Shown piece after piece: positions 22,161-51,076 of a stretch of DNA of 64,000 bases. A program made the translations under genes and the position numbers. Each line of letters begins with the position of its first letter. The first letter of the stretch is position 1. The notes under the pieces are model-generated. The model was given only the letters and a program-made list of their open reading frames with translations, was not told the DNA's origin and did not search any database. The stretch comes from Hymenobacter sp. DG01 (GTDB lineage Bacteria; Bacteroidota; Bacteroidia; Cytophagales; Hymenobacteraceae), in assembly GCF_006352025.1 (NCBI RefSeq), contig NZ_CP040936.1, forward strand, positions 3,598,001-3,662,000. Direction: 5' to 3'.

Positions 22161-22195
22161 GGGTTGGTGGGAAGTTAGGGGGTAGGAAGGTCGGG

Positions 22196-22340
22196 TGATG
22201 AGGTAAAAGGTGATGAAGTGAAGAGGTGATGGGGTGATGAGGTGAACTGTTTGTCATCCTGAGCCTAAGCGAAGGATGACAGTTACCTTATTCTCTCCTG
22301 TCACTTCTTACCTCATCTCCTCATCTCCTCCTCACTCTTT
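22196..22340. repeat. Compound inverted repeat, copy 1
   Basis: Plus-strand GGTGATGAAG/GGTGATGGGGTGATGAGG units at about 22196-22246 are mirrored by CCTCATCTCCTCATCTCC at about 22313-22331. In the centre TGTCATCCT (22252-22260) pairs with AGGATGACA (22273-22281). The right arm runs to the amylase stop codon, whose TGA (22332-22334) is read from CTCCTCACT. The left arm lies before the MFS start. Confidence 0.7.
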
Positions 22341-24179: not shown

Positions 24180-24312
24180 AGGTGTCAGTGGTCAGTTGCC
24201 GGTTATGAGTTGCCAGAGCCAGCCAGCCGGAATCGGTGAAAAATAAACAAAGCGTACTCGCCTACCCCCTCCAACCCGGCAAACCAACAATGCATAACGG
24301 GCAATGGAGCCC

Positions 24313-25020: not shown

Positions 25021-25022
25021 GG

Positions 25023-25515
25023 TCGTTCTATCGGGTTTAGCCCGCAGAGGGCGCTGAGTTTTTCGCAGAAGGCGCAGTGTTCTTATAGCCCGTTCACTTT
25101 CCTGAAAATTCCGGACTTGATAGCAGGAACGTTGAAGTTAATCAATAAGCCAAGTTTGTGGCCTGAGAGTTTTAGGTAGGTAATGAGCTGCATATGATGT
25201 ACTTCAAGCAAAACTTCTACGGATTTTAGCTCTACTACTACCTTGTTTTCCACCAACAGATCCATACGGAAGCCGTTTTCCAGTCGCAACCCATCGTACA
25301 CAACCGGCAGGGCAACCTGAGATTTAACTTCCAGGCCACTCTTGCGCAGCTCGTGGCACATAGCGTCTCATACACCGATTCCAGCAGCCCCGGCCCCAAT
25401 GCCGTGTGAATTGTAAACGCCGCCTTCCGAATCAAAAAGGAAATATCGTTCTCCTGCATTCTGCGTCCTCTGCGAAAAACTCAGCGCCCTCTGCGGGCTA
25501 AAACCGATAGAACGA
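25023..25515. mobile_element. Inverted-repeat cassette carrying a GxxExxY gene
   Basis: A 55-base left arm (25023-25077) and right arm (25461-25515) are inverted repeats matching at 52 of 55 positions. Between them is only the GxxExxY reading frame. Its start codon is one base from the right arm and its stop is five bases from the left arm. The arm core is CGCAGAGGGCGCTGAGTTTT. No transposase is encoded and no clear target duplication is seen. The cassette sits between the SDR start and the end of the GH13 gene with almost no spare bases. It looks like a non-autonomous mobile cassette. Confidence 0.8.
25083..25459 (-). pseudogene. GxxExxY family gene, frameshifted
   Basis: The first part (ATG at 25459) reads MQENDISFLIRKAAFTIHTA then LGPGLLESVYETLC, the family N-terminus with the GLLESVY core. 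The frame then goes wrong. The rest continues in another frame from about 25361 as CHELRKSGLEVKSQVALPVV, then MDLLVENKVVVELKSVE and HHMQLITYLKLSGHKLGLLINF, the family C-terminus. A single-base insertion or deletion near 25361-25370 explains both. The family looks nuclease-like (PD-(D/E)XK fold proposed) and its role is unsettled. It could be a real mutation, a sequencing error or a recoding site. Confidence 0.85.
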
Positions 25516-25519
25516 AACC

Positions 25520-27424: not shown

Positions 27425-28016
27425 ACGCGAGTGGGATGAGAAAACAGAAGTGGCAAGGTACGCACCCCCACGCCTGAAACGCTACTGTTGAATGCGGCCT
27501 CAATGATGATGTATTGACCGATTTATAATTCGGTATTGACAGATTTACTTATCCGCCTGGTTTCAGCAGGCTAATAAGGTTGCAGTAACTACATTCCGGA
27601 CGCTCCGCCTAAGCCTGGCCGCCAGGCGGGCCTCTCTTCTGGAAGCAAAGCAGGGAATGCCGGAAAAAACCTATTTGCCGGCGGCCCCGGCCCGCTCTGC
27701 CGCCGTCTGGCTGCCGCCCGCTTCTTACTAGTGGGCTCTGAGGTAGTTAGCTGCCCAGTCGCTTATTACGCTGAGTTAACCATTGGTTAAAGCCGCGCTA
27801 GCAATGGTAGCACTAGTCGGGCCGAGGTTCAGGCTTCGGTGAAGCGTATGATGATGCTGATTTGTCTTTTGCTGGTGTCAGGTTTGCATTTTAGGCTCCT
27901 GGCAGCCAGCGGCCTGGTAGAGTCTGCACTTTTCCGCTTTTTTTGAGTCTGAATTCGTAGGTGAATTCAATTAGCGAGCATACCGTCCGCACATTCATTT
28001 TGTCCTACCCCCTCTT
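27425..28016. other. Divergent regulatory region of the alpha-glucan genes
   Basis: 592 bases between two divergent genes. The main structure is a pair of direct repeats, TATTGACCGATTTA at 27512 and TATTGACAGATTTA at 27534. The rest shows a repeated GAATTC near 27950-27970 and a T-run near 27940. No perfect TAnnTTTG promoter was found for either gene, and no small gene was recognised. Confidence 0.5.
27512..27547. promoter_or_regulatory. Direct-repeat operator candidate
   Basis: Two 14-base direct repeats, TATTGACnGATTTA, start 22 bases apart, about two helical turns. They lie 88 bases upstream of the GH13 start on the minus strand. Same-face spacing suggests a regulator binding as a dimer. 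The binding protein is unknown. Confidence 0.4.
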
Positions 28017-29669
28017 ATGGCTTTTGACCTTCAGATGTACACGCCCGCTCCGGAATTCAGCACCCCGGCGGCTTATTTTTCCATGGAATTTGCGCTCGAC
28101 CAAGCGCTGAAAACATACTCCGGCGGCCTGGGCTTCCTAGCTGGCTCGCACATGCGCTCAGTTTATGAGCTGAAGCAGAACTTGGTGGGTATCAGTATTC
28201 TGTGGTCGTTTGGCTATTATGACCAGGGCCGCAACGAAGACCAGAGCATGCGCGCCGACTTCCGCCTGAAGCACTACAGCTTCCTGCAAGACACGGGCCT
28301 GGTGTTCCCCATCGAAATTCACAACGCCCAGGTGCTGGTGAAGGCCCTGTACCTGGCTCCCGACACGTTCGGGACGGCCCCCATGTTTTTCCTGACCACC
28401 GACATTCCGGAAAACGACTACCTCTCGCGCACCATCTCTCATCACCTGTATGATGCTGATACGGCGGCCCGCGTGGCCCAGAGCATTCTGCTAGGGGTAG
28501 GCGGCGGCAAGCTGCTGGATGTATTGGGCCGCCAGACCGACATCTACCACCTCAACGAAGGCCACGGCCTACCCCTGGCGTTCTACCTCTACGACAAGCA
28601 CGGCCGCAACCTGGAGGAGGTAAAGAAGCGCCTAGTGTTCACGACCCATACGCCTGAGCTGGCCGGCAACGAAGAGCACCCCGTAAAGCTGCTGCACAAG
28701 ATGTCGTTCTTCGGTAATGTGCCGCTGGAAGAGGTGCACCGCTTAGGCCTAGTGGAAAACGAGAGCCTGAACTACACACTCACGGCCCTGCGTTTTTCGC
28801 GCATCAGCAACGGCGTGTCCAAGGTGCACGGCGAGGTAGCCAACGACATGTGGGGGCACTACGCCGGCATCAGCCCCATTATTGCCATTACCAACTCCCA
28901 GAACGGCACCTACTGGCGCGACAAGCAACTGCATGCCGCCCTGGAAGCCGGCGACGACAAGGCCCTGAAGGCCCGGAAGCGGGAGCTGAAAAAGCAGCTC
29001 TTCGACATCGTGGCCGACCAGACCGGTACCCTCCTCGACCCCGAGGTCCTGACCGTGGTGTGGGCCCGCCGCTTTGCCGGCTACAAGCGCGCCGACCTGA
29101 TTCTGCGCCACTTCGAGCGGTTCCTGGAAATCGTAAATAACTCGGAGCGCCCCGTGCAGGTGATTTGGGCGGGTAAGCCCTACCCCAAGGATTTCGGTGC
29201 TATTGGGCTGTTCAACAGCATCATCGAGAAAACCAAAAATCTGAAAAATTGCGCCGTACTAACGGGCTACGAGTTGGCGTTGTCGGCGGCCCTGAAGAAA
29301 GGCTCCGACATTTGGCTGAACACCCCGCGCTACCCCCGCGAGGCGTCCGGAACCTCGGGCATGACGGCCGCCATGAACGCCTCGGCCTCCCTGAGCATTG
29401 CCGATGGCTGGATTCCGGAGTTTGTGCGCCACGGCGAAAACGGCTTCATCATCGGGCACACCGACATTACCAAGCCCGACGAAGAAAAGGACGACATCGA
29501 GGCCACGAACGTGCTGGATGTGCTCGAAAACGAAATTGTTCCGCTCTATTACGGCCAGCCTGAGAAGTTCCTGGAGCTGGTAAAAACCGGCATGCGCGAA
29601 GTGGAGCCCGAGTTCGAGTCGCACCGCATGGCCACCGAGTACTACGAGCGGATGTACAAGGTGAAATAG
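28017..29669 (+). CDS. GT35-like alpha-glucan phosphorylase family protein (PLP lysine replaced)
   Basis: A 550-residue protein of the short alpha-glucan phosphorylase type. Clear family blocks are AAYFSMEFAL..YSGGLGFLAGSH (residues 18-43), YHLNEGHGLPLAF (about 178), FTTHTPELAGNEEH, RFAGYKRADLIL and IWAGKPYP. The block EASGTSGMTAAMN (about 442) aligns with the phosphorylase EASGTSGxKAAxNG, where Lys carries pyridoxal phosphate; here it is Thr (codon ACG). It may be a distinct subfamily without phosphorolysis, or a glycosyltransferase. Context with amylases fits intracellular alpha-glucan metabolism. The start is the ATG at 28017. Confidence 0.8.
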   Translation: MAFDLQMYTPAPEFSTPAAYFSMEFALDQALKTYSGGLGFLAGSHMRSVYELKQNLVGISILWSFGYYDQGRNEDQSMRADFRLKHYSFLQDTGLVFPIEIHNAQVLVKALYLAPDTFGTAPMFFLTTDIPENDYLSRTISHHLYDADTAARVAQSILLGVGGGKLLDVLGRQTDIYHLNEGHGLPLAFYLYDKHGRNLEEVKKRLVFTTHTPELAGNEEHPVKLLHKMSFFGNVPLEEVHRLGLVENESLNYTLTALRFSRISNGVSKVHGEVANDMWGHYAGISPIIAITNSQNGTYWRDKQLHAALEAGDDKALKARKRELKKQLFDIVADQTGTLLDPEVLTVVWARRFAGYKRADLILRHFERFLEIVNNSERPVQVIWAGKPYPKDFGAIGLFNSIIEKTKNLKNCAVLTGYELALSAALKKGSDIWLNTPRYPREASGTSGMTAAMNASASLSIADGWIPEFVRHGENGFIIGHTDITKPDEEKDDIEATNVLDVLENEIVPLYYGQPEKFLELVKTGMREVEPEFESHRMATEYYERMYKVK

Positions 29670-31896: not shown

Positions 31897-32553
31897 ATGG
31901 CTGACTTCACTTCTTCCGCGTCCGGCCAGGCCGGTACGCGCCGCTCGCTTTTTCAACGCTTTCAAAGCTGGCTGCGGCCCGCTACCTCAAACCCACCCCA
32001 GGCGCTGGTGTCCATGCGCACCAGCGCTAGTGCGCCCTACATAGGCGAAATAGCCATTTTCGCTGGCAATTTCGCTCCGGCTGGTTGGGAGTTTTGTGAT
32101 GGCCGGCAGATGCCCATCTCTGAAAATGAGTCCTTATATCAGCTGATTGGTACTACCTACGGCGGCGACGGGCAGAAAACCTTCTGCTTACCCAACCTGC
32201 AGGGGCGGGTACCGCTACATCAGGGCCTAGGTCCGGGCCTGAGTACAGGCTACACGATGGGAGAAATGGTGGGAGTAGAAACCGTGACGCTCACGACCCT
32301 GCAGATTCCAGTGCATAGCCATACGCCGGGGGCCAGCACGGCTCCCGGCACCACGGCCTCGCCGGTGGGCGCCGTGCCTGCCAACAGCGGTACGGGCTCG
32401 GCTCAGTACACGCAGGCCACCACCAACCTGGTCGTGCAACCCACCCAGACCCTGGGGGTAGTGGGTGGCAGCCAGCCCCACGAGAATATGCAGCCTTACC
32501 TGGCCGTCAACTACATCATTTCGCTGTACGGGGTTTTTCCTTCCCAGACCTAA
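31897..32553 (+). CDS. Phage tail collar domain protein (MdpB-like)
   Basis: 218 residues. The collar domain (PF07484) is visible as YIGEIAIFAGNFAPAGWEFC, DGRQMPISENESLYQLIGTTYGGDGQ and TFCLPNLQGRVPLHQG (residues 49-109), with a C-terminal GGSQPHENMQPYLAVNYIIS. Such microcystin-dependent-protein-like genes often occur in small bacterial clusters outside prophages. The first 45 residues are basic and lack a clear signal peptide, unlike the two paralogues that follow. It belongs to the same operon as its neighbours. Confidence 0.85.
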   Translation: MADFTSSASGQAGTRRSLFQRFQSWLRPATSNPPQALVSMRTSASAPYIGEIAIFAGNFAPAGWEFCDGRQMPISENESLYQLIGTTYGGDGQKTFCLPNLQGRVPLHQGLGPGLSTGYTMGEMVGVETVTLTTLQIPVHSHTPGASTAPGTTASPVGAVPANSGTGSAQYTQATTNLVVQPTQTLGVVGGSQPHENMQPYLAVNYIISLYGVFPSQT

Positions 32554-32565
32554 GCCTTCCACACC

Positions 32566-33252
32566 ATGTCTGTATTACCTACTATACCAGCCGGCGGCTC
32601 TTCCCGGCGGAGCTGGCTTAAAAAGCTGGGCGGGGTGCTGGGCGGCAGCTTGCTGCTAGGCAAAAGCCAGGCGGCGGCCGGCGCCCAGCGTGTCGCTTCC
32701 GTTCAGGGCACCGAGCCCTTTCTGTCGGAGATTATGCTGGTTTCCTTCAACTTCGCCCCTAAAGGCTGGGCCCTGTGCCATGGTCAGCTGCTACCCATTA
32801 ACCAAAATCAGGCCCTGTTTGCCCTGTTGGGTACTACCTACGGCGGGAACGGACAAACCAACTTTGCCCTTCCCGACCTGCGGGGTCGGGTTATTGTCAG
32901 CGCTGGAGAAGGTCTGACGCTGGGTCAGAGAGGCGGCGAGCAGGCGCATACGCTCCTGGCCACGGAGATTCCGGCCCACATACACGCCATGAAAGCCAGC
33001 CCCGCCACCGGCACTACGCCGCTTTCGGGTGCCTCGGGCCCCACTGTACATCATTACTTGGCCGATAACGGCGGTGGGGCTCCCCAGTTTGGCTACGATG
33101 TTAACACGGCGCTGGCCAGCTCCTCGGTGGCAACTCCTCCCGTCAACGTTTCGAGTATGGCAGGGGGTAGCCAGGCGCATACCAACATGCAGCCCAGCAT
33201 ATGCCTCAACTACATCATCAGCCTTCAGGGCATTTTCCCCAGTCCTAACTAG
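32566..33252 (+). CDS. Phage tail collar domain protein with Tat-like signal
   Basis: 228 residues. The N-terminus has SSRRSWLKKLGGVLGGSLLL, a twin-arginine motif followed by a hydrophobic run, then a probable cleavage after SQAAAGA. The collar domain follows: EIMLVSFNFAPKGWALCHGQ, QNQALFALLGTTYGGNGQTN, FALPDLRGRV, ending GGSQAHTNMQPSICLNYIIS. It is a paralogue of its two neighbours. Export of a folded collar protein by the Tat system is inferred from the motif. Confidence 0.85.
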   Translation: MSVLPTIPAGGSSRRSWLKKLGGVLGGSLLLGKSQAAAGAQRVASVQGTEPFLSEIMLVSFNFAPKGWALCHGQLLPINQNQALFALLGTTYGGNGQTNFALPDLRGRVIVSAGEGLTLGQRGGEQAHTLLATEIPAHIHAMKASPATGTTPLSGASGPTVHHYLADNGGGAPQFGYDVNTALASSSVATPPVNVSSMAGGSQAHTNMQPSICLNYIISLQGIFPSPN

Positions 33253-33254
33253 TC

Positions 33255-33926
33255 ATGCCATCCTCACCTACGCCTTATTCTACCACCCAGCCTACCCGCC
33301 GGAGCTGGCTTAAGCGCCTGTCCGGAGTAGTGGCCGGCAGCTTCCTGGCTGGGCCCCTGCAGGCGCTGCTGGGTAAGGCCACGCCGGCGGCGGCCGGCAC
33401 GCTCTCCGGGGGCAGTGGAGTGTTTTTGGGGGAGATAATTGCGGTGCCCTTCAACTTCGTACCCGTCGGCTATGCCCGCTGCGACGGCCAGCTGCTGCCG
33501 CTTTCGCAGAATACGGCCTTGTTTGCCTTGCTGGGCACAACCTATGGCGGCAATGGCAAAACCAACTTTGCGCTGCCTGACCTGAACGGGCGGGTTGCCG
33601 TTGGGGCCGGCCAGGGGGCTGGCCTCAGCAACTACGACCTGGGTCATATGGGTGGCGAGAGCGCCGTGGCCCTGCAAGTCCAGGAAGTGCCGGCGCACAC
33701 GCATACCCTGGCCCTAACCTACAGCACGGAGCTGGGCACCACGGGCTCCCCCGAAAACGCCTACCTGGCCAGCAACGGCTCCGGCGAGCCCCAGTACAAC
33801 GCCTCCGGCACAGGCTTCACGGCCAACGGAGCGGTTGGGGCCGCCGCCGGGCACAACAATATGCAGCCCTACCTTACCCTTCATTACCTGATTGCCATGC
33901 AGGGAATTTTTCCACCGCGCCAGTAG
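33255..33926 (+). CDS. Phage tail collar domain protein with Tat-like signal (paralogue)
   Basis: 223 residues, starting 2 bases after the previous stop, so translation may be coupled. The N-terminus TRRSWLKRLSGVVAGSFLAG again has a twin-arginine motif and hydrophobic run, with a likely cleavage near AAAG. The collar region is GEIIAVPFNFVPVGYARCDG, QNTALFALLGTTYGGNGKTN and FALPDLNGRVAVGAG, and the end is GHNNMQPYLTLHYLIAMQG. Closest relative in the window is the preceding gene. Confidence 0.85.
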   Translation: MPSSPTPYSTTQPTRRSWLKRLSGVVAGSFLAGPLQALLGKATPAAAGTLSGGSGVFLGEIIAVPFNFVPVGYARCDGQLLPLSQNTALFALLGTTYGGNGKTNFALPDLNGRVAVGAGQGAGLSNYDLGHMGGESAVALQVQEVPAHTHTLALTYSTELGTTGSPENAYLASNGSGEPQYNASGTGFTANGAVGAAAGHNNMQPYLTLHYLIAMQGIFPPRQ

Positions 33927-38739: not shown

Positions 38740-38858
38740 GTTTTTTACGTGTGCGGTAGGTGTATAGCAAGGCGTGTGTACTAGCGTAAAAACAGATTTT
38801 ATAGGCTGAAAACGCATTTTTTACACTTGTTTTTATCCGCCGCCGGCTGATATATTTG
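38740..38858 (+). promoter_or_regulatory. Regulatory module 1 and promoter, GH5/regulator operon
   Basis: GTGTGCGGTAGGTGTATA at 38749-38766 is followed by a further GTGTG at 38774. TTG at 38827-38829 and TATATTTG at 38851-38858 (spacer 21) form the promoter. The 18-mer starts 102 bases before TATATTTG. The same module is found before susC at 43500-43608. The bases GTTTTTTACGTGT just upstream (38740) recur at 43425. Confidence 0.7.
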
Positions 38859-39152
38859 ATGACAGCCCCGCCGGAAAACGCCTCCCGGGCTCCGGAGCCT
38901 TGGCGCCTTTGCCCCACGCAACCGAGCCCCTACCCCCCGAAAGGCAGCCAACCCACCGAGGCCCAGAGCCCCACCGGCCCGCCTACCCCCCGCGCGGCTG
39001 CCAAAAGCGGATGGCGCGCATAAAACCCGGAGTTGCCGCGGCGCCTCTCCCCATGACCCGGAAACCAGCCCCTACTGGTACAGCTCCGGTTGGCCTTGGG
39101 TTCCCCGCGAGGGGTAGCATCCAGATAAAAAAGAGTGAGAAAATCGGAAAAG

Positions 39153-39178
39153 GGGCGGGGTATCTCCGCCCTGTTTTT
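39153..39178 (+). terminator. Terminator-like hairpin in the GH5 leader
   Basis: GGGCGG (39153-39158) and CCGCCC (39166-39171) with a 7-base loop are followed by TGTTTTT. It lies between the promoter at 38851 and the GH5 start at 39213, so it could attenuate transcription of the leader. Confidence 0.45.
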
Positions 39179-39212
39179 CTCATTCCACCACCTCTCTTTA
39201 ACCTTTCCGCAC

Positions 39213-41090
39213 ATGAGTTGCCAACTTACGCGGCTACGCTGGAGCCCAGCAGCGGCCCGGCGCGGCCTGGGGCTGCTATTGATGGCTTGCCTGAGCGCCG
39301 GTCCCCATCTGGGCTTCGGGCAGGAGCTTACCGCACTTCGGGCATCGGGGCCCAGAATAGTGAACACCCAGGGACAGGAAGTGGTGCTGCGGGGCTACAA
39401 TGTGGGCGGGTGGCTGCTGCAGGAAAGCTACATTCTGCAAACCGATACGCTGAACAGCCAGTGGCGCATCTGGCAGGGGCTGCTGCGCACCATGCCTGAG
39501 GCTCAGGTAGAAGAGTTCTACCGCCAGTATCGTCAGAACTTTATCACTAAAGCAGATATTGATTTTCTGGGTCAACAGGGGTTCAATGCCGTGCGCCTGC
39601 CTTTCCATTACGACCTGTTTCTGACCCCGGAGCAGCGCCGCGCCCGTACTGCCGTCATCCGCGACCCGCACAACGACCAGAAGCTGGCGGCCTACGTGGA
39701 GCAGCTTAGCGGCTGGTACGACCAGGGCCGCCTGTTCGCGGATACGAAAAACCTGGAGGGGTTCCGGCTGATTGACCAGGTAGTAAAGTGGTGCGCTGCC
39801 AACCGCATGTACGTTATTCTGGACCTGCACGCGGCTCCCGGCGGCCAGGGCACCGACCGCAACATCAACGACAACTTCCGGCCCCTAGACCTGTGGAAGC
39901 GCCGCGACGCGAAAGGCCGCCTGATTTACCAGGACCTGACGGTGCGCCTCTGGGAAAAGCTGGCCGCCCGCTACCGGCAGGAGCCCCGCATTGCCATGTA
40001 CGACCTGATCAATGAGCCGCATAACCTCAACGCGTCCAATGGTTTGTCGGCCGATAACCAGGAGCTAGCCGCCCTGTACGCCCGCCTGATTACGGCCGTG
40101 CGCGCCCAGCGCGACGAGCACCTGCTGCTGCTGGAAGGCAACGGCTACGGCAACGAGTACACCAACCTCACCCCCGATAAGCTGGCTACCCCCGACAAGC
40201 GCAACCTGGTGTACAACGCCCACCGCTACTGGTGCCCCAACACGCCAGAAGCCGCCGACCCCAACCCCAATCAAATCAATCTGTTGCATAACCTGGCGGC
40301 TTTCCGGGAGCGGTGGCAGGTGCCGGTGTGGGTAGGCGAAACCGGCGAAAACTCCAATGAGTGGTTTGCCGCCGCCGTGCAGGGTCTCAATAGCCTGGGC
40401 ATCGGCTGGGGCCACTGGAACCTGAAGCGCGTTGATTCAGGGGCGGGCCTGTTGCGCGTCAGGCCCTACGGCAACCTTCTCACGCCCGAGGGGCGGGCCA
40501 ACCTGCTGCGCAACGTGCAGTTTGCCAACTGCCAGATAAACACCGATGTACTGGCGGCTCTTACTCAACCGGCCGGGGCCCGGACGCCGTTTGCTTCCCT
40601 CTCCATTCCCGGCACCATTCCGGCCACCGACTACGACCTGGGCCGCGACGGCGTAGCCTACCACGACGAGTTTTCGGCCCGCACCGATTTTCGGGACCTG
40701 ACTCCGCCCAACCAGGGCGGCGCCTACCGCAACGATGGGGTAGATATTACGGCCTGCCCGGAAGCTCCGAACGGGTTTGCCGTCAGTAAGTTGGCAACCG
40801 GCGAGTGGCTTGCCTACACCGTAACCGTTGCCAAGCCAGGTGCTTATAGGGCCGAGGTGCGGCTGCAGCCCGGGACGGCGCAGGGCCGCCTGGCCCTGCG
40901 CCTGGGCGACCTGGACGTGGGTACGGCCACCGTAGCGCCCGGGCAGGACTGGGTGACGGTGGCCCTGACTACCCCCACCCTGCCCGCCGGGCAGCATACC
41001 CTGCGCGTGCTGGTGGAGCAGCCCCTTGGGCAGCTGGGCTGGCTACGCTTTGCGCCGGCCCCGAATGGCGGTGGCGCGGGCGGCCAGTAG
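39213..41090 (+). CDS. Exported GH5-family glucanase with CBM6-like domain
   Basis: 625 residues from the ATG at 39213, followed by a signal peptide (cleavage near GFGQ). The (beta/alpha)8 domain has VLRGYNVGGWLLQESYI, VILDLHAAPGGQGTDRN and LINEPHN (acid/base Glu), and WVGETGENSNEW (nucleophile Glu) near residue 385. The C-terminal 130 residues (DYDLGRDGVAYHD, FAVSKLATGEWLAYTVTVAK, GAYRAEVRLQ) form a CBM6-type carbohydrate-binding domain. Subfamily is not certain; exo- or endo-acting beta-1,3/1,6-glucanase would fit the GH16 gene in the locus. It is 35 bases before the regulator gene. Confidence 0.88.
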   Translation: MSCQLTRLRWSPAAARRGLGLLLMACLSAGPHLGFGQELTALRASGPRIVNTQGQEVVLRGYNVGGWLLQESYILQTDTLNSQWRIWQGLLRTMPEAQVEEFYRQYRQNFITKADIDFLGQQGFNAVRLPFHYDLFLTPEQRRARTAVIRDPHNDQKLAAYVEQLSGWYDQGRLFADTKNLEGFRLIDQVVKWCAANRMYVILDLHAAPGGQGTDRNINDNFRPLDLWKRRDAKGRLIYQDLTVRLWEKLAARYRQEPRIAMYDLINEPHNLNASNGLSADNQELAALYARLITAVRAQRDEHLLLLEGNGYGNEYTNLTPDKLATPDKRNLVYNAHRYWCPNTPEAADPNPNQINLLHNLAAFRERWQVPVWVGETGENSNEWFAAAVQGLNSLGIGWGHWNLKRVDSGAGLLRVRPYGNLLTPEGRANLLRNVQFANCQINTDVLAALTQPAGARTPFASLSIPGTIPATDYDLGRDGVAYHDEFSARTDFRDLTPPNQGGAYRNDGVDITACPEAPNGFAVSKLATGEWLAYTVTVAKPGAYRAEVRLQPGTAQGRLALRLGDLDVGTATVAPGQDWVTVALTTPTLPAGQHTLRVLVEQPLGQLGWLRFAPAPNGGGAGGQ

Positions 41091-41125: not shown

Positions 41126-43132
41126 ATGAAGCTCGTGAATTCCCACCTCCCACCGCGTCGGGCTATCTGGTTTTCTTTCCTGACGCTGAGCACCCCCCTG
41201 CTCCTGTGCCTCCTGTTTGTTGGCTCCCTGGCCCAGGCACGCCCCGCCGATACCCTGCGGGTGCATGCCGGCCTAGAGGAGCTATTCGTTGATCCTGGCC
41301 AGTACAGTGTGCTGGAAGACCCCTCCGGCCACTTAACTCTGGCCCAAGTGCAGGAGCCGGCGTGGGCCGCCAGGTTCCGGCCCGGCAGCACCCTGCCCAC
41401 CACCATGGACCACCCGGGCTCGGCCTACTGGCTGCGCCTGGTGGTGCAGGCACAGGGCAGCCTGAGCCAGCACTGGTACCTGGAAATGTTTGACTCCCAC
41501 CTGAATAGCGTGGAGTTTTACCCGGTTGATGGCTCCGCTCCTACCTTCACGGGGTCCGATTTGCCCCTGGCTACCCGGAAGTTTCCCTACAAGAACTTCC
41601 TGTTCCGCCTTCCCCTACCCCCCAACCAGGCCCAAACCTACTACCTGCGCCTGACCTCCAACTCCAAAACCACCTTCCTCAGCCGCCTGCGCACCGAGCA
41701 AACCCTGGCCGTGCACTTCCAGACGGAGTACGGGCTGCTGGGTGGCTTCTATGGAGTGCTCCTGATTATGGTGGTGTACAACCTGTGCCTCTACCTGTTC
41801 ATCGGGGAGCAAACCTACCTGCGCTACGTGCTGTACGTGCTCAGCTGCAGCCTGGTATTTATGTCGGAAGATGGGCTGGGGTTTCAGTATCTGTGGCCGG
41901 GACACCCGGTGCTGAACCAGATAATTACGGCTGGTTCGCCTATTCTGCTGCTGCTCACCTTCAGCTACTACGCCCGGCAGTTTCTGGATACCGCCCAGCG
42001 CTTGCCTTCCTACGACCCCTGGATCAGGGCGGTGGTGCTGCTAAGCGTGGCCGGGCTGCTGATTGATGCCGTTTGGCTGAGCTCGGGCTGGGGCTTCTGG
42101 TTTTACCTGCTGCCCTACTGCATGATTTATTACGCGGCCTACCGGGTGTGGCAGCGGGGGCAGCGCACGGCCCGCTTCTTTCTGCTGGCCCACGTGATGG
42201 TAGCCATCAGCGTGGTATTCATGATTTTACGCAAGCTGGGCATTAACACTTTCACCAACACGGCCACAGTGTACAGCATGAACGCGGCTTTCGTGGTGGA
42301 AGTGGTGGTGCTGTCTTATGCGCTGGGCGAGAAAATCAAGGGGATTAAGGATGCTACCATCCGGGCCCAGGGCAAGCTGGTAAAGCAGCTGCGCAAGAAG
42401 CACCAGGTGCAGGAGCAGTTAGTAGAGCAGCTGCAGCGCAACCAGGAGCTGAAAGACCAGCTGAACTCTGAGCTGGAGGGCTTAGTGGCCCAGCGCACCG
42501 ATGAGCTGCGCCTGCAAAGCGACACCATTGCGGCCCAAAACCGGGAGCTGCTGCAAGCCAACGGGTTGCTGGCCCTGCAGTCGGCGGCCATTGAAAAGCT
42601 GAACGCCGAGCTGCAGCGCGACCTGCAGGAGGTAAAAACGGCCCGGGTTCTGTCGAAGGAAGTAAACTTCGGCGAGTTCAGCCAGATCTATCCCGACAAG
42701 GACGCCTGTTTGGTGTATCTGGCCAACCTGAAGTGGTCTGAGGGCTACCAGTGCCGCAAATGCGGGCACGAGAAGTACTGCGACGGCCGGGAGCCTCATT
42801 CGCGCCGGTGCACCAAGTGTCGGTACGTGGAGTCGGCCACGGCCTACACCTTGCTCCAGAAGTGTAAGTTCCCGATTATTAAGGCCTTCTATGCGGTATT
42901 TTTGATTTATACGCACAAAGGCAACTACTCTTCCCAGGAGCTTTCCCGCGTGCTTGATCTGCGTCAGGGCACCTGCTGGAGCTTCAGTCAGAAGGTGCTG
43001 GAAGCCATGCGCCGCCGCCGCCGGGCTCCCGACTTCGATGAAAACGAAGGCTGGACCCACATCCTGCTGGATGCCTCCGGCCTGGAGCCCGAGGAAGCAG
43101 GCGCCGCCGAGGAAGCTACCGTCAGAGCGTAA
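41126..43132 (+). CDS. 7TMR-DISM membrane sensor fused to IS1595-type transposase zinc-ribbon domain
   Basis: 668 residues from the ATG at 41126. A signal peptide (to about 38) precedes a periplasmic 7TMR-DISMED2-like domain (about 50-190, SAYWLRLVVQAQG, HWYLEMFDSHLNSVEFY). Seven membrane segments follow (about 200-400), then a coiled coil (about 415-520). The C-terminus (about 525-640, FGEFSQIYPDKDACLVYLAN, then WSEGYQCRKCG and RRCTKCRY) is the Zn_Tnp_IS1595 zinc ribbon of IS1595 transposases, with CxxC pairs and the following helical part. The DDE catalytic domain is missing. I infer a membrane-bound transcription regulator for the glucan locus; it precedes susC and follows the GH5 gene. 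Confidence 0.85.
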   Translation: MKLVNSHLPPRRAIWFSFLTLSTPLLLCLLFVGSLAQARPADTLRVHAGLEELFVDPGQYSVLEDPSGHLTLAQVQEPAWAARFRPGSTLPTTMDHPGSAYWLRLVVQAQGSLSQHWYLEMFDSHLNSVEFYPVDGSAPTFTGSDLPLATRKFPYKNFLFRLPLPPNQAQTYYLRLTSNSKTTFLSRLRTEQTLAVHFQTEYGLLGGFYGVLLIMVVYNLCLYLFIGEQTYLRYVLYVLSCSLVFMSEDGLGFQYLWPGHPVLNQIITAGSPILLLLTFSYYARQFLDTAQRLPSYDPWIRAVVLLSVAGLLIDAVWLSSGWGFWFYLLPYCMIYYAAYRVWQRGQRTARFFLLAHVMVAISVVFMILRKLGINTFTNTATVYSMNAAFVVEVVVLSYALGEKIKGIKDATIRAQGKLVKQLRKKHQVQEQLVEQLQRNQELKDQLNSELEGLVAQRTDELRLQSDTIAAQNRELLQANGLLALQSAAIEKLNAELQRDLQEVKTARVLSKEVNFGEFSQIYPDKDACLVYLANLKWSEGYQCRKCGHEKYCDGREPHSRRCTKCRYVESATAYTLLQKCKFPIIKAFYAVFLIYTHKGNYSSQELSRVLDLRQGTCWSFSQKVLEAMRRRRRAPDFDENEGWTHILLDASGLEPEEAGAAEEATVRA

Positions 43133-43154: not shown

Positions 43155-43196
43155 CACAAGGCCCCCGGGTACCCACGGGTATCCGGGGGCCTTGTG
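43155..43196 (+). terminator. Terminator of the GH5/regulator operon
   Basis: CACAAGGCCCCCGG and CCGGGGGCCTTGTG form a 14-bp stem; the loop has its own GTACCC/GGGTAT pairing. It lies 22 bases past the regulator stop and separates the two transcription units of the locus. Confidence 0.8.
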
Positions 43197-43499: not shown

Positions 43500-43608
43500 G
43501 TGTGCAGTAAGTGTATAATATAATTGTGTGCTAAGCTCAAAAATGCCCCGCACGGCGTTTTAAGGCGTTTTTTGTGTTGCTTTTCCAAAACACGGACGGA
43601 TATATTTG
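43500..43608 (+). promoter_or_regulatory. Regulatory module 2 and promoter, susCD operon
   Basis: GTGTGCAGTAAGTGTATA at 43500-43517 matches module 1 at 16 of 18 bases. A further GTGTG is at 43526. TTG at 43577-43579 and TATATTTG at 43601-43608 have a 21-base spacer, the same as module 1. The 18-mer begins 101 bases before TATATTTG. The leader to susC is about 300 bases. Confidence 0.72.
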
Positions 43609-43909: not shown

Positions 43910-46900
43910 ATGAACCAACACCTCTACACTCAGGCGCTGCTGCGCCGGGCTTTGTGGTTGGCGGCTTGCGGCCTGCCTGCCCTTCCTTCCCTGGCAGCAG
44001 CCCCCTCCACGGCGGCCGGACTTCCCGGTCCAGCCGCTACCCCCCGCCTGCTCGCCGATGTGCCAGTGTCGGGCCGCGTTACCCAGAGCAACGGTGAGCC
44101 GCTGCCGGGGGTAACCATTATTGTGAAAGGAACCACCCTGGGCACCACCACCGACGCCGACGGCCGCTTCTCTCTGAACGCGCCCGAAAACTCGACCCTG
44201 GTGGTAAGCTACGTGGGCTTTACCCGCCGCGAAGTGCCCATTACGGGAGCTTCATCTTCCCTGAGCATTACGCTGGCCGAAGACACCCGTGCCCTCAGTG
44301 AGGTAGTGGTAGTGGGCTACGGTACCCAGGAGCGGGGTAGCGTAACGGGCGCCGTTTCGTCGGTATCGGCGCGGGAAATTGCCACCCAGCCCGTGGCCGA
44401 TGCTACCCAGGCCCTGCAAGGCCGGGCAGCGGGCGTTACGGTTACCTCAAACGGTGGAGCCCCTGGCGGAGCCGCTGGTACCTCCATCCGCATCCGGGGT
44501 CTTACGTCGGCGGGCAACAACAACCCTCTGTTCGTAGTGGACGGGTTCCCGCTGCCCGATGGCAACGAAAACCAGCTAAACGCCATCAACCCCAACGACA
44601 TTGAAACCATTGACATCCTGAAGGATGCCTCGGCCACGGCTATCTACGGGGTACGGGCTGCCAACGGGGTAGTGATTATCACCACCAAGCGGGGCAAAAC
44701 CGGTACCTCCACCATTAACCTGGATGCCTACCGCGGGGTGCAGCAGGTGTGGCGCAAGCTGGACCTGCTCAACGCCGAGGAGTACGCCGTTATCAACAAC
44801 GAAGGCCGCCTGGCGGGCGGTGCCCCCATTGTGGTGGACCGCCTGCGCAACCCGCAAGGGCTGGGCGAGGGCACTGACTGGCAAGACGAGGTGTTCCGCC
44901 GGGCTGCCATCCAGAACTACTCGCTTTCGGCTACGGGCGGCAGCGAAAAGGCTCGCTACGCTGTGTCGGCCAGCTACTTCCAGCAGGATGGTACCATTGT
45001 AGGCTCAGACTTTGAGCGCTTTACGCTGCGGGCTAACGGCGACGTGCAGGTAAACAAGATTCTAAAGCTGGGCAATAACATTTCGCTGACCCACCTCAGC
45101 GACCGGCAAATTACCTCCAACAGCGGGGAGTATGGCACCGTGCAGCAAACGCTGCGCATTCCGGCCATTATTCCGGTGTACCGGCCCGATGGCTACTACT
45201 ACGAGCCCCGCGGCGCCCAGGACAACTTCATTGAGGAAAACCCGCTGGCTTCGGCTACCATCACCAACCAGCGCTTCTACCGCAACCGCGCCCTGACTAC
45301 CTTCTTTGCCGAGCTGGAGCCGGTACGGGGCCTGCGCTTCCGCACCAACGTAGGCGCCGACTTCGTGTTCGACAACTTCAATGCCTTCCGGCCCGGGGTG
45401 CCCGAGCTGCAGGCCGACGGCCAGACCTACACCAGCCGCTACACCCAGGCTACGGCCGGGGCTACGGCTACGGCCTCCTACGCCCCCAGCTACCTGATTG
45501 AGAACACGGCTACCTTCGACCGCCTCATTGCTGATAAGCACCAGGTAACCGTGCTGGTGGGCCAGTCGGCGCAGCAGTTCAACTACAGCAACGTGGAGGC
45601 CTACCGCACCGGCTACCTACGCAACGACTTGCAGGTAATCAACTCGGGCCCCATTAACACCCAGATCGGCAACGCGGGTACCATCAACCGGCCCTCGCGT
45701 TTGCTCAGCTACTTCGGCCGCGTTAACTACGAGTTTGCCGGCAAGTACCTGTTCCAGGCCATTGCGCGCTACGACGGCTCGGGCAGCTTCCCGCCCGGCG
45801 ACAAGTTTGGCTTCTTCCCCGGCGTTTCGGCGGGCTGGCGCATCTCGGAGGAGGATTTCCTGAAGGGCAACCGCGTGATCAGCAACCTGAAGCTGCGCGT
45901 GGGCTACGGCAAGGTGGGTAACCCCAACAACGCCGGCCGCTTCGCCTACCTCTACGCCATCAACTCGGGCATCCGCTACCCCTTCGGGCCTAACGGCGGC
46001 ACTCTGCAGACGGGTGCGGCGCCTACCCGCCAGGCCAACCCCGACCTGCGCTGGGAAACCAACAACCAGACCAACGTTGGTATTGACCTGGGCTTCCTGG
46101 ACAACCGGTTTGAGGCTACCATTGACCTCTACAACCGTAGCTCGCCCAACCTGATTGCGCCCGTGCCGGTTTCCCTGGTGTCGGGTACCTACGAAACGGT
46201 AAACCGCAACGCGGCTTCGGCCTACAACCGGGGTATCGACTTTTCCTTCACCTCGCACAACGTGCGGGGCACGGGCCGCGGCCTGAACTGGACCACGACC
46301 CTGAACTTGTCGGCCTATAAGTCGGAGCTGGAGTCACTGGGGGTAGGGCAGCCCTACAACGGCCTGAGCGCCCTGAGCGGTGTAATTGTGCGTTACGATG
46401 AGGGCCAGGCCTTTGGCTCGTTCTACGGGTTTGTGGCCGACGGCCTGTTCCAGACCCCCGAGGACGTGCAGAACCACGCCACCCAGCAAAGCGGCACCGC
46501 CCCCGGCGACATTCGCTTCAAGGACCTGAACAACGATGGCGTGATTAACGCCGAGGACCGGACCTTCATTGGCAACCCCAACCCCGACTTTACCTACGGC
46601 CTGAACAACACAGTAACCTGGGGCGGCTTCGATCTGAACATCTTCCTGCAGGGCTCCCAGGGCAACGACATCTACAACCAGAACCGCTACATTCTGGAAA
46701 GCCCCCTCTACGGCACCAGCAGCGGCAGCACCCGCGTACTGGGCCGCTGGACGGGCCCCGGCACCAGCAACGACGTGCCCCGGGCCTTCGCCGGCGACAA
46801 TGCCGACCCCAACCAGAACCTGCGGGTTTCCACGTATTTTGTGGAGGATGGCTCCTACATGCGCATCAAAACCCTCACGCTGGGCTACTCCCTGCCCCAG

Positions 46901-47074
46901 AGCATTATGGAGCGCATTGCCGCCAAGCAGGTGCGCGTGTACGCCAGTGCCCAGAACCTGCTGACCCTGACCAAGTACTCCGGCTATGACCCCGAGGTAG
47001 GCTCCCGTGGCATTGACCTGGGCGTGTACCCGCAGCCCCGGGTGTTCTTGCTCGGCCTCAACATTGGTTTCTAA
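43910..47074 (+). CDS. SusC/RagA family TonB-linked outer membrane protein
   Basis: A 1054-residue TonB-dependent receptor that takes up oligosaccharides with its SusD partner. A long leader (1-48) precedes the carboxypeptidase-regulatory domain (VSGRVTQSNGEPLPGVTIIV, about 51-110). The TonB box area is SEVVVVGYGTQERG (about 128-141), then the plug (IRIRGLTSAGNNNPLFVVDG) and the beta barrel ending in VFLLGLNIGF. No N-terminal extension for an anti-sigma partner (STN domain) is visible, so regulation by an ECF sigma system is unlikely. The glucan target is inferred from the GH5 and GH16 neighbours. Confidence 0.95.
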   Translation: MNQHLYTQALLRRALWLAACGLPALPSLAAAPSTAAGLPGPAATPRLLADVPVSGRVTQSNGEPLPGVTIIVKGTTLGTTTDADGRFSLNAPENSTLVVSYVGFTRREVPITGASSSLSITLAEDTRALSEVVVVGYGTQERGSVTGAVSSVSAREIATQPVADATQALQGRAAGVTVTSNGGAPGGAAGTSIRIRGLTSAGNNNPLFVVDGFPLPDGNENQLNAINPNDIETIDILKDASATAIYGVRAANGVVIITTKRGKTGTSTINLDAYRGVQQVWRKLDLLNAEEYAVINNEGRLAGGAPIVVDRLRNPQGLGEGTDWQDEVFRRAAIQNYSLSATGGSEKARYAVSASYFQQDGTIVGSDFERFTLRANGDVQVNKILKLGNNISLTHLSDRQITSNSGEYGTVQQTLRIPAIIPVYRPDGYYYEPRGAQDNFIEENPLASATITNQRFYRNRALTTFFAELEPVRGLRFRTNVGADFVFDNFNAFRPGVPELQADGQTYTSRYTQATAGATATASYAPSYLIENTATFDRLIADKHQVTVLVGQSAQQFNYSNVEAYRTGYLRNDLQVINSGPINTQIGNAGTINRPSRLLSYFGRVNYEFAGKYLFQAIARYDGSGSFPPGDKFGFFPGVSAGWRISEEDFLKGNRVISNLKLRVGYGKVGNPNNAGRFAYLYAINSGIRYPFGPNGGTLQTGAAPTRQANPDLRWETNNQTNVGIDLGFLDNRFEATIDLYNRSSPNLIAPVPVSLVSGTYETVNRNAASAYNRGIDFSFTSHNVRGTGRGLNWTTTLNLSAYKSELESLGVGQPYNGLSALSGVIVRYDEGQAFGSFYGFVADGLFQTPEDVQNHATQQSGTAPGDIRFKDLNNDGVINAEDRTFIGNPNPDFTYGLNNTVTWGGFDLNIFLQGSQGNDIYNQNRYILESPLYGTSSGSTRVLGRWTGPGTSNDVPRAFAGDNADPNQNLRVSTYFVEDGSYMRIKTLTLGYSLPQSIMERIAAKQVRVYASAQNLLTLTKYSGYDPEVGSRGIDLGVYPQPRVFLLGLNIGF

Positions 47075-47098: not shown

Positions 47099-48592
47099 AT
47101 GCTACCCCTACATAAGTACAGAACCACCTACGGCGCCTGGCTCCTGACGCTGGGCCTGCTCAGCGGGTGCGGCGAGAAGTTTCTGGAAGAAACTCCCACC
47201 GACCAGGTAACCGACGCCAACTTCTACCGCACTACCACCGACGCCATTCAGGCCACCAACGCCGTGTATGGTGAGTTGATTACGGCTGGCCAGTACAACG
47301 CCGCCCTCTGGGGCCTGGGTGACATTGCCTCCGATATTTCTACTACCGGCGGCGGTGGCGGCGGCGACGGTATCGAGTACCAGCAGCTCGACTTCTTCAA
47401 CATCCCGAGCACCAACCTGGTGACTAACCGCCTGTGGGGCAGCTGCTACGTGGGCATCGGGCGGGCCAACATCGTGCTGCAGAAAGTGCCGGGCATGAGC
47501 ATTGATCCGGCCATTCAGAAGCGCAGCATCGGGGAGGCGCAGTTCCTGCGCGCCAAGTACTACTTTGACCTGGTGCGGGCCTACGGTGACGTGCCCCTGC
47601 TCACGACGCCTCCCGCTACCCTGGCCGATGTGAACGTACCCCGGACCCCGGTCGCGCAGGTGTACGCTCAGATTGAGAAAGACCTGACGGATGCCATTGG
47701 CAACCTGCCGGGCTCTTACAGCGGCGAAGACCTGGGCCGAGCCACCAAGTGGGCCGCCACCGGCCTGCTGGCCAAGGTGTACCTCACGGAAGGCAAGTTG
47801 CCCGAGGCCGCCACGCGAGCCCGCGAGGTAATTAGCGGCAGCGGTAAAACCCTGTGGGACAACTACGCCGATAACTTTAAGGTAGCCAACGAGAACGGCA
47901 AGGAGTCGTTGTTTGAGGCCCAGTTCCTCTCGGGCCGCAACACCTGGGACCAGAATGGCCCCGGCTTCAGCGGCAACGAGTTCTTCGGCCCCCGCGGCCA
48001 GGGCGTAGTGCCCCAGGGCGGCTACGGCTTCAATATTCCCGAGGCCGATTTTGTGGCTGGCTACGAAGCCGGCGACCTGCGCCGTGATGCCACCATCTGG
48101 ATGCCCGGCGATGTGTACCCCGATGGCCGCAAGCAGCCGGACCGCCTGCCCGGCTCCCCGAACGGCTATGGCTGCAAGAAGTGGTTTGTGGGCAAAGTCA
48201 ACACCAACATCTGGGACTCGGAGCTGAACATTCCGGTGATGCGCCTGGCCGAGGTGTACCTGATTCTGGCCGAAGCTGTGGGCACTACCTCTGAAGGCTA
48301 CGAGGCCATCAACAAAGTGCGCCGCCGTGCCTTCGGTCTGCCCATCAACGCTACCAGCGCCAAAGACCTCTCCGGCCTGGGCGCCGACGCCTTCAAGCAG
48401 GCCGTGTGGCGGGAGCGGAAGTACGAGTTGGCCTTTGAAATGGACCGGTGGTTTGACATGAAGCGTACCGGGGAGCTGCTCACCTCGCCCCAGCTGCGGG
48501 CCAAGGGCATCAAGCCCTTCAACGTAGTGCTGCCCATTCCGCAGTCGGAGCTGGATGTAAACACCGGCCTGCGTCAAAACCCTGGTTACTAA
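47099..48592 (+). CDS. RagB/SusD family glycan-binding lipoprotein
   Basis: 497 residues. The lipobox LLSGC puts the acylated Cys near residue 24, followed by GEKFLEETPTDQVTDANFY, typical of SusD. TPR-like helices (AQFLRAKYYFDLVRAYGDVP near 140, ATKWAATGLLAKVYL near 218) and the C-terminal RERKYELAFEMDRWFDMKRTG and NPGY end fit the family. It forms the lid of the SusC channel on the cell surface. It starts 25 bases after the susC stop. Confidence 0.95.
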   Translation: MLPLHKYRTTYGAWLLTLGLLSGCGEKFLEETPTDQVTDANFYRTTTDAIQATNAVYGELITAGQYNAALWGLGDIASDISTTGGGGGGDGIEYQQLDFFNIPSTNLVTNRLWGSCYVGIGRANIVLQKVPGMSIDPAIQKRSIGEAQFLRAKYYFDLVRAYGDVPLLTTPPATLADVNVPRTPVAQVYAQIEKDLTDAIGNLPGSYSGEDLGRATKWAATGLLAKVYLTEGKLPEAATRAREVISGSGKTLWDNYADNFKVANENGKESLFEAQFLSGRNTWDQNGPGFSGNEFFGPRGQGVVPQGGYGFNIPEADFVAGYEAGDLRRDATIWMPGDVYPDGRKQPDRLPGSPNGYGCKKWFVGKVNTNIWDSELNIPVMRLAEVYLILAEAVGTTSEGYEAINKVRRRAFGLPINATSAKDLSGLGADAFKQAVWRERKYELAFEMDRWFDMKRTGELLTSPQLRAKGIKPFNVVLPIPQSELDVNTGLRQNPGY

Positions 48593-48694: not shown

Positions 48695-49957
48695 ATGCAT
48701 ACTATGTTTACGCGCCTGGCCGTCCTTGGCCTGTTGGCTGCCCCGCTCCTCCTGGCTTCCTGCGACAAGGACGCCAAAGACTACGAGCTGGAGGGCGCCG
48801 TGCCCACCTCCTCTTTTTCCTACCAGGTAAGCACCACCGAGTACCCCGCTACCGTAACGTTTACCAGCACCGGACAGGACGGGTTCCTCTACCAGTGGAA
48901 CTTCGGCGACAACTCCCGCGGCTCGGGCAACAGCGTCACGCACACGTACACCCGCCCCGGCACCTACCAGGTAGAGCTGATTACGGCTGGCCGTGGCGGT
49001 ACGGGCATTTCGGCCAAGCAGGCGGTGGTTATTCCCGATGTCTGCACTAATGCGGCCTTCAGCAAGCTGGTAGACTGCGCCGGCAGCGGCACCCGGGTGT
49101 GGTCCTTCTCCACCGAGCCCGGCGCCATCGTGCGGGAGTCGGCTACCGGCACCCAGCTTTCCAGCTCCACTACCCTGAACAACTGCCAGCTCGACGACCA
49201 GTTCTCGTTCAGCAATAGCTACACGGTGAACTACGAAAGTGCCGGCCAGACCTACACGGGTACTACCTGCGGCGCTTCCCTGAACCGCGGCGGTAGCTTC
49301 GTGTACCGGCCCACCAGCAACGGCCTGGGTCAGATTGTTCTGAAGGGGAAAGGCGGCTTTATTGGCCTGCCTGACTCGGTAGCCAACAAAACCTACGACA
49401 TTCTGGAGGCATCTGACACCAAGCTGCGCCTGCGCGGGACCAACCCCGATGGCACGCGCACCGTCGTGACCCTGATGCCCTTCGATGCCACGGCCCCCAT
49501 CAAGCGCCTGCTCACGGGTGGTACCTCCAAAACCTGGATGATTGACAACAAGGCCGATGCCCCGATTACGGTAGGCACCGAAGCCAACCCCCTGGAGTAC
49601 TTTGCCGGCGTAAAGGCCGGGGAGCTGCCCGCCTGCCAGTCTGACGATGAGTACACCTTCTCGATGAGCAACGTCTTCACCTACGATGCCAAAGGCGAGA
49701 CCTTCTCGGCGGCGGCCGGCTACACCTGCAAGGCCCCGGAGTCGGGCACCTCGCCCATGGTGTTCGGCCCCTCGGCCGGCGCCGGGCTGGCGCAGTTCAC
49801 CCTGTCGCGGGCTGGCTCCTTCATTGCCGCCACCGATGCCTCGCCCACTGAGCGCGTGTACCGGATTATGGAAATCGACGACAAACACATGGTACTCCGG
49901 GCCGGCAGCGGCCAGAACGGCGGTACGGTGTTCACCATCAAAATGGTACCAAAGTAG
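48695..49957 (+). CDS. PKD-domain surface lipoprotein (SusE/F-position)
   Basis: 420 residues. The signal peptide with lipobox LLLASC puts the Cys near residue 23. A PKD domain follows (about 40-110: FTSTGQDGFLYQWNFGDNSR, then VTHTYTRPGTYQVEL). The rest has two similar beta-rich halves, each opening with a tryptophan motif (TRVWSFSTEPGAI near 142, SKTWMIDNKADA near 278) and a DDxF/Y phrase (CQLDDQFSFSNSY, CQSDDEYTFSMSN). Position after susD and the lipoprotein signal suggest a glycan-binding partner on the cell surface. The duplicated halves are my observation; I know no name for them. Confidence 0.85.
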   Translation: MHTMFTRLAVLGLLAAPLLLASCDKDAKDYELEGAVPTSSFSYQVSTTEYPATVTFTSTGQDGFLYQWNFGDNSRGSGNSVTHTYTRPGTYQVELITAGRGGTGISAKQAVVIPDVCTNAAFSKLVDCAGSGTRVWSFSTEPGAIVRESATGTQLSSSTTLNNCQLDDQFSFSNSYTVNYESAGQTYTGTTCGASLNRGGSFVYRPTSNGLGQIVLKGKGGFIGLPDSVANKTYDILEASDTKLRLRGTNPDGTRTVVTLMPFDATAPIKRLLTGGTSKTWMIDNKADAPITVGTEANPLEYFAGVKAGELPACQSDDEYTFSMSNVFTYDAKGETFSAAAGYTCKAPESGTSPMVFGPSAGAGLAQFTLSRAGSFIAATDASPTERVYRIMEIDDKHMVLRAGSGQNGGTVFTIKMVPK

Positions 49958-50191: not shown

Positions 50192-51076
50192 ATGAAAAAT
50201 CAATTTTTACCCGGGCAACGGCGTCAGTGGTTTGGGGCGGGCCTTTTGCTTACCCTGAGTTTACTTTCCTGCACCGAAACCAAAACCAAGAACGTACCGG
50301 CTCCCACGCCGCCTACCCCCACTACCCCGGTCGTAAACGAAGAAGCCCGCGAATACGCCCAGTACACGGAGCTGGTCTGGAAGGACGAGTTTGACGGGGG
50401 CACCATTGACCAGACCAAATGGACCCACGAGCTGGGCGCCAGCGGCTGGGGCAACAACGAGCTGCAGAACTACACTAACTCCACCGACAACTCCTACCTG
50501 CGCAACGGCATGCTGGTCATTCAGGCCCAGAAGCAGACCACGGGTAGCAACGCCTACACCTCGGCCCGCCTGATTACCAAGGGCAAGCAGAGCTTCCAGT
50601 ACGGCCGCATTGATGTGCGCGCCAAAATTCCCAAGGGCAAAGGCGTGTGGCCGGCCATCTGGATGCTGGGTGCCGACATCGACCAGAACAACTGGCCCAA
50701 GTGCGGCGAAATTGACATTATGGAGCTGCGGGGCAGCCGCCCCACAGAGTTGCTCTCCACCATGCACTACGCCAACAGCATGGGCGTGCACGAGTACAAA
50801 GGCACTACCCAGAACCTGAGCGAAGACCTCTCGGCCGACTTCCACACCTACAGCGTGGTGCGCAGTAAAAACCTGACGCGCTTCTACCTCGATGGCAGCG
50901 CTACACCCTACTACACCTACTCCGCCACCGACGCCAGCCCTTTCCCGTTCAATAACCCCTTCTTCGTGATTCTGAACGTGGCCGTGGGCGGCAACTTTGA
51001 TGGCAACCCCGACGGTAGCACCACCTTTCCCCAGCAGATGCAGGTGGATTACGTGCGCTACTACCAGTACAAATAA
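50192..51076 (+). CDS. GH16 laminarinase-type lipoprotein
   Basis: 294 residues. The lipobox (LLTLSLLSC) puts the Cys near residue 28, then a Pro/Thr linker (VPAPTPPTPTTPVV). The catalytic domain has LVWKDEFDGGTIDQTKW near 61 and the GH16 active site GEIDIMELRG (residues 171-180), with nucleophile and acid/base glutamates as E-I-D-I-M-E, the bulged form found in laminarinases. The end VDYVRYYQYK is typical. It probably hydrolyses beta-1,3-glucan at the cell surface for the SusCD pair. Confidence 0.94.
   Translation: MKNQFLPGQRRQWFGAGLLLTLSLLSCTETKTKNVPAPTPPTPTTPVVNEEAREYAQYTELVWKDEFDGGTIDQTKWTHELGASGWGNNELQNYTNSTDNSYLRNGMLVIQAQKQTTGSNAYTSARLITKGKQSFQYGRIDVRAKIPKGKGVWPAIWMLGADIDQNNWPKCGEIDIMELRGSRPTELLSTMHYANSMGVHEYKGTTQNLSEDLSADFHTYSVVRSKNLTRFYLDGSATPYYTYSATDASPFPFNNPFFVILNVAVGGNFDGNPDGSTTFPQQMQVDYVRYYQYK

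Follow-up and report, generated by a model that had tools for sequence, protein, structure and literature searches.

The question raised by this locus is which protein controls it. The window (the whole stretch analysed, 64,000 nucleotides of Hymenobacter sp. DG01 DNA) carries on its + strand a gene for a GH5 cellulase-family enzyme with CBM6/35 (39135..41090, start codon uncertain), ending 35 bp before a gene that joins a membrane receptor to a putative transposase DNA-binding domain (41126..43132; the fusion). On the same strand follow genes for a SusC-like TonB-dependent receptor (43910..47074; PF07715, PF00593), a SusD-like protein (47099..48592; PF07980, PF14322), a PKD-domain protein (48695..49957) and a GH16 glucanase-family enzyme (50192..51076), all assigned with Pfam. 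With adjacent susC and susD genes accompanied by GH5 and GH16, this is a SusC/SusD polysaccharide utilization locus. An earlier note on this DNA had reported that HTCS, SusR and ECF sigma/anti-sigma pairs are absent; a scan of 27 of the 41 listed window proteins likewise turned up nothing of the HTCS, SusR-like or sigma/anti-sigma kind. Elsewhere in the window, 20547-29669 holds a starch-type cluster (alpha-amylase, cyclomaltodextrinase, MFS transporter, short-chain dehydrogenase and a phosphorylase-like gene), and 31897-33926 holds three tandem phage tail Collar-domain genes with two adjoining genes that have no Pfam match.

The fusion ORF starts with ATG at 41126, its stop ends at 43132 and it encodes 668 residues; coordinates and frame are exact. 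Both sensor domains claimed earlier are matched well above their Pfam cut-offs, the periplasmic 7TMR-DISMED2 domain at residues 59-184 (41300..41677, + strand; 93.9 bits, cut-off 22) and the 7TMR-DISM_7TM membrane domain (PF07695) at residues 202-402 (41729..42331, + strand; 142.6 bits, cut-off 29), a predicted transmembrane region. The protein is thus a 7TMR-DISM receptor, and the PF07695 match together with a reading of the sequence points to seven membrane helices. The linker that follows (residues 403-504; 42332..42637, + strand) reads as a probable coiled coil. No kinase, receiver or AraC domain was found in the fusion by the Pfam scan, so it is not a hybrid two-component protein. The genome has a single copy; a second 7TMR-DISM gene matches in the receptor part only.

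The IS1595 zinc ribbon (Zn_ribbon_IS1595, PF12760) is matched at residues 524-567 (42695..42826, + strand; zinc cysteines 543, 546, 562 and 565) with 23.1 bits and E 7e-5. The ribbon proposed earlier is therefore present in the C-terminus, although its score lies slightly below the cut-off of 25.4. The post-ribbon segment (residues 580-638; 42863..43039, + strand) matches the start of the NCBIfam model NF033547 'IS1595 family transposase' (model positions 2-61 of 215) with 32.3 bits and E 9e-8; the cut-off of 75 is missed, as expected if the remainder of the transposase is absent. Across the domain the fusion is 51-52% identical to L067 and L068, true IS1595 transposases from the same order (PF12760 + PF12762), and it lacks all of their sequence from VDVDETYVGG onward, where the DDE domain starts. 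The DDE nuclease PF12762, found by Pfam in the true transposases L067, L068 and L064, has no match in the fusion, so that the claimed loss of this domain holds. By homology, then, the C-terminus of the fusion is the zinc ribbon of an IS1595 transposase with the helices that follow it, without the DDE nuclease. In the PDB profile search a solved relative was obtained for neither the fusion domain (best E 0.36) nor the transposase. Zinc ribbons are multi-functional and the weak PDB matches, none of them significant, include ribosomal zinc proteins, so the domain might bind RNA or protein instead of DNA; this we regard as very improbable, since the transposase segment behind the ribbon is retained and the genes accompany a conserved promoter site (described below).

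The receptor-domain fusion is widespread. In a draw from the genus it was found in 61 of 71 genomes at E 1e-60. One of these copies (G776, C1:3524439-3525926) is matched only up to residue 501 and may lack the DNA-binding domain. In the order draw the domain was matched in 108 of 291 genomes at E 1e-10, a single genome yielding as many as 13 matches; among the matches listed, about 80 of the 108 genomes have theirs in an open frame of at least 590 residues, and the non-fusion matches are transposases of ~300 residues or short frames. In the phylum draw, matches came from 44 of 395 genomes. In 11 of these the matching frame has at least 600 residues; nine are Cytophagales, and the remaining two belong to families elsewhere in the class. 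PF07695 was found in all 120 relatives among the matches listed of 241 and all 120 of those listed of 629, and PF12760 in 91 of the 120 (of 241). The closest relative among the matches listed, from Hymenobacter luteus, is 99% identical in the domain. Family members are currently named hypothetical protein, receptor, transposase, histidine kinase LadS or chromosome partitioning protein.

Several members depart from the usual arrangement. In L171 and L172 the frames are ~1,000-1,070 residues long and the domain lies some 400 residues further from the start; L169 has a tandem pair of fusion paralogues on a single contig; in L024 (11831-14230) and L031 (6032-8038) the fusion has beside it another 7TMR-DISM gene, one that lacks the transposase domain; and in L069 (8053-9976) receptor and domain occupy separate, overlapping ORFs of 199 and 475 aa, possibly because of a frameshift in the gene or the assembly.

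Every one of the 241 sequences compared retains the four zinc cysteines, the set being made up of the window protein, the best 120 of 241 matches and the best 120 of 629 matches. When the window gene is paired with each of six close relatives (NG86, some dS values approaching saturation), dN/dS comes to 0.009-0.037 for the domain, against 0.099-0.222 for the sensor and membrane part. This conservation rejects a recent IS insertion, and it bears on the reading that the C-terminal domain is a functionless, degenerate remnant of an IS1595 element inserted in a receptor gene. Such a remnant would also be homologous to transposase N-termini, as the domain is, yet the intact cysteines, the low dN/dS and the single frame shared by receptor and domain in 20 of 20 hand-picked loci from other families (L018-L037) leave it a negligible probability. 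On this comparative evidence the fusion is a conserved Cytophagales family. In a tree of 82 domain rows, made by a short search on few columns, one branch (SH-aLRT 94) separates 54 fusions from 28 transposases, and this single split fits one capture of the domain. The two non-Cytophagales fusions (L163 and L164, from two genomes of the class) are nested among the Cytophagales fusions, possibly through horizontal transfer; in L164 SusC adjoins the fusion.

Neighbourhoods were compared with genes called by a longest-ORF script and SusC/SusD detected by HMMs built for the analysis. Among 20 loci, each from a different genome (17 from the same genus, three from a sister genus), GH5 lies directly upstream of the fusion in 18, and SusC-SusD lies downstream on the same strand in 19, at a fusion-susC distance of 2.7-2.8 kb in three of them (L048, L049, L052); the one locus without SusC-SusD in this position is L057, whose genome, G149, holds a second copy. 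In L042 (2337-6800), L043 (2232-6710) and L053 (13237-17667) a gene of ~1,400-1,490 residues, partly similar to the GH16 of the window, precedes GH5. In other Cytophagales (20 hand-picked loci, one per genome) the gene directly after the fusion, on the same strand, encodes SusC in 11 cases and not in nine. A larger named set of 80 loci, three of them repeated from the order sample, includes 78 with a downstream gene, and this gene is SusC in 68; in three of the remaining 10 nothing but a tiny called ORF separates fusion and SusC. This set is biased, because an alignment of eight proteins, five of them from SusC-adjacent loci, served as query and the best 80 were kept. Among nine further fusions SusC is next in two and not in seven. 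As a control, SusC is the next gene after none of 20 7TMR-DISM genes without the domain in genomes of the same family. The neighbouring enzymes point to beta-glucans: besides GH5 and GH16 there are PF10091 with GH3 in L075 and L114, PF10091 in L127, GH3 with a GH16-like gene (in-house HMM) in L021 and L022, and GH30 in L018. The PF10091 family, 'putative glucoamylase', includes beta-1,2-glucanases.

An 18-bp motif at 38749 and 43500, first pointed out in the earlier note, proved real, with two matches in the window against none in 100 shuffles and no others at up to three mismatches. The first operator-like site (GTGTGCGGTAGGTGTATA; 38749..38766, + strand) precedes the GH5-fusion operon with the -7 element TATATTTG 102 bp downstream, and the second (GTGTGCAGTAAGTGTATA; 43500..43517, + strand) precedes susC with the same element 101 bp downstream. 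Right after the fusion stop lies a terminator-like inverted repeat (43155-43196; 20-nt arms, 95% complementary, 2-nt loop), and this hairpin, together with the site and promoter before susC, suggests two transcription units, GH5-fusion and susC. In relatives, too, the coding strand carries the site ahead of susC and of GH5; where another gene lies ahead of GH5 (L042, L043, L050, L053, L055) the site precedes that first gene, which in L042, L043 and L053 is the long gene mentioned above. A scripted count gives 34 sites (up to two mismatches) in 20 of 21 sequences (the window and 20 related loci). A strict promoter, defined as TTG, 20-22 bp and TANNTTTG (-33/-7), follows 28 of the 34, the distance from site to -7 element being 80 bp (one), 90 bp (five) or 101-103 bp (22), in bins chosen after seeing the data; 34 random positions have such a promoter in 0.15 cases on average. 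The steps between ~80, 90 and 102 bp are about one helical turn each. A second half-site was considered and rejected: several loci show a weaker direct repeat at an offset of 24-25 bp downstream, but its average match is barely above that at other offsets (3.9 vs 2.5 of 10 in locus sites, and in other sites not above other offsets).

The position usual for an activator is upstream of the -33 element. The sites lie there, at distances in roughly helical-turn steps, which speaks against the reading that the fusion binds the site and represses, or serves as an anti-activator; the direction of control is not readable from sequence alone, and we consider repression very improbable.

The predicted regulon of the putative activator extends beyond the locus. 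The genome has six sites at up to two mismatches, against one for the backwards pattern. The four outside the window stand before three tandem GH30 genes, before a sugar-isomerase cluster that also holds GMC, Gfo/Idh and keto-disaccharide-hydrolase genes, and before GH3-like and GH16-like genes, both assigned by their sequence. Across 71 genomes of the genus the site (up to one mismatch) occurs in 46, with 106 matches against five for the reversed pattern. With GH5 and susC promoters excluded, 46 of these 106 sites and the four from the window's own genome form a set of 50 outside-locus sites; four of the 46 (in G044, G783, G798 and G804) are less than 15 kb from the fusion. An ORF of at least 220 residues lies behind 49 of the 50. 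By Pfam these first ORFs are GH16 (18), xylose-isomerase-like TIM barrel (nine), MFS (five), GH30 (four), GH5 (four) and GH3 (three), that is, carbohydrate families in 43 of 49 if none is counted twice; the other six include DNA polymerase III alpha twice. The strict promoter is found at 10 of the 50 sites, always 79-81 or 89-91 bp away, and not at the other 40.

Site and fusion also occur together. The site was found in 46 of 61 fusion genomes and in none of the 10 that have no fusion (Fisher 7e-6, a value that ignores kinship), and these fusion-less genomes may have lost the entire locus. Fifteen genomes have the fusion but no site at up to one mismatch; the two inspected among them, G143 (L048) and G135 (L049), have sites with two to three mismatches near the fusion or GH5. 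The linkage suggests that the protein binding the 18-bp site is the fusion. A different factor might bind it, the fusion being a membrane regulator that acts otherwise or on other genes, and motif and gene might merely share locus and ancestry; such a factor is unlikely, as the 10 fusion-less genomes are devoid of the site, fusion genomes have many sites far from the locus and the scan of 27 window proteins revealed no other regulator. The earlier proposal of the fusion as controller of this locus thus gains support from linkage, site and co-occurrence, but not as something peculiar to the locus, the family being Cytophagales-wide and the predicted regulon wider.

In other Cytophagales the fusion-susC gaps contain a motif like ATGTTTTTTAAGYGYAAAA, with an EM log-likelihood of 496 vs 63 for base-shuffled gaps. 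Its consensus is matched at 13 or more of 20 positions in 72 of 78 gaps, a count made on an A/T-rich motif without a shuffled control, and the strict -33/-7 pattern occurs in one of the 78. The exact core TAAGYGY, present in 16 of 16 in the Hymenobacter group, occurs in 13 of these 78 gaps on the coding strand and five on the other (shuffled mean 3.9, maximum 8), which makes a link between the Hymenobacter and Cytophagales motifs possible.

Both ends of the close IS1595 copies L067, L068 and L058 read TTGAAYTAGGCACTT. That the operator is the transposon terminal repeat was rejected in the plain Hymenobacter comparison, which is not significant (8/10 matched; 34% of shuffles equal). Against the operator profile from other Cytophagales, seven of nine transposon ends align in one register at an AAGYGC-like core (single p 0.03-0.12) and the remaining two fall out of register (p 0.06 and 0.64), in a test whose ends are mutually related and whose shuffles preserve single-base content only. 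The likeness of operator and transposon ends is thus suggestive only.

Taken together, we think it quite likely that the fusion acts as a transmembrane one-component activator whose output domain was captured from a transposase and whose targets form a beta-glucan regulon. The periplasmic 7TMR-DISMED2 domain would sense a beta-glucan breakdown product, and the signal would cross the seven-helix domain and the coiled coil to the cytoplasmic zinc ribbon and helical domain. This IS1595-derived domain would bind the 18-bp site GTGTGYNGTARGYGTATA in Hymenobacter, where site and spacing are observed and binding is predicted. The bound fusion would then switch on the GH5-regulator operon, susC-susD-PKD-GH16 and the distant GH30, GH3, GH16 and keto-sugar genes. 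That a transposase DNA-binding end serves as regulator output, as first proposed, agrees with the indirect tests (homology, DDE loss, conservation, tree, linkage and promoter site). The clade-wide conserved fusion is real, and the comparative case for its control of Hymenobacter beta-glucan genes is strong. More broadly, it seems probable on balance that one ancient event, in which a membrane receptor acquired the DNA-binding domain of an IS1595 transposase, gave rise to a new class of Cytophagales transmembrane regulators. Many of these adjoin SusC/SusD loci; in some families the class would have expanded to several paralogues, and its operators may keep the TAAGYG core of related transposon ends.

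If true, this would be a bacterial transposase capture that yielded a transcription-factor family, and it would supply a class of regulator for Cytophagales sugar-polymer loci, the usual ones not being found among the scanned window genes. The predicted site and regulon make the proposal directly testable. The open literature searched gave no paper joining 7TMR-DISM with IS1595, with a Bacteroidetes transposase or with SusC, and none joining IS1595 transposase with zinc ribbon; among the matches listed for domesticated transposases there was no bacterial regulator of this kind.

The fusion resembles IS1595 transposases in the zinc ribbon and the part that follows (45-52% identity in the closest ones) and differs from them in lacking the DDE nuclease, in being joined to a receptor and in being present as a single copy in the DG01 genome. 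Eukaryotic transposase captures and bacterial TnpB-derived regulators are cases in which the DNA-binding part of a mobile element has become a regulator; in the fusion, by contrast, this part comes from an IS1595 DDE transposase and is joined to a bacterial membrane receptor. ChiS controls chitin use. Proteins of the ChiS family combine a C-terminal DNA-binding domain with sensory domains, including a 7TMR-DISM architecture, but the ChiS domain is a cryptic HTH of proteobacteria (PMC8092284), neither a zinc ribbon nor transposase-derived. With the hybrid two-component and SusR-like regulators of Bacteroides, as outlined in PMC3878776, the fusion would share the control of polysaccharide loci, whereas it has no kinase, receiver or AraC domain. 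The wider kind to which it would belong is that of the transmembrane transcription regulators (TTRs) defined by a survey (PMC10269533) that describes Bacteroidota as rich in them and whose main text does not mention transposase, 7TM or zinc. From the TTRs described there the fusion differs in that its output is transposase-derived and its membrane part is a seven-helix receptor.
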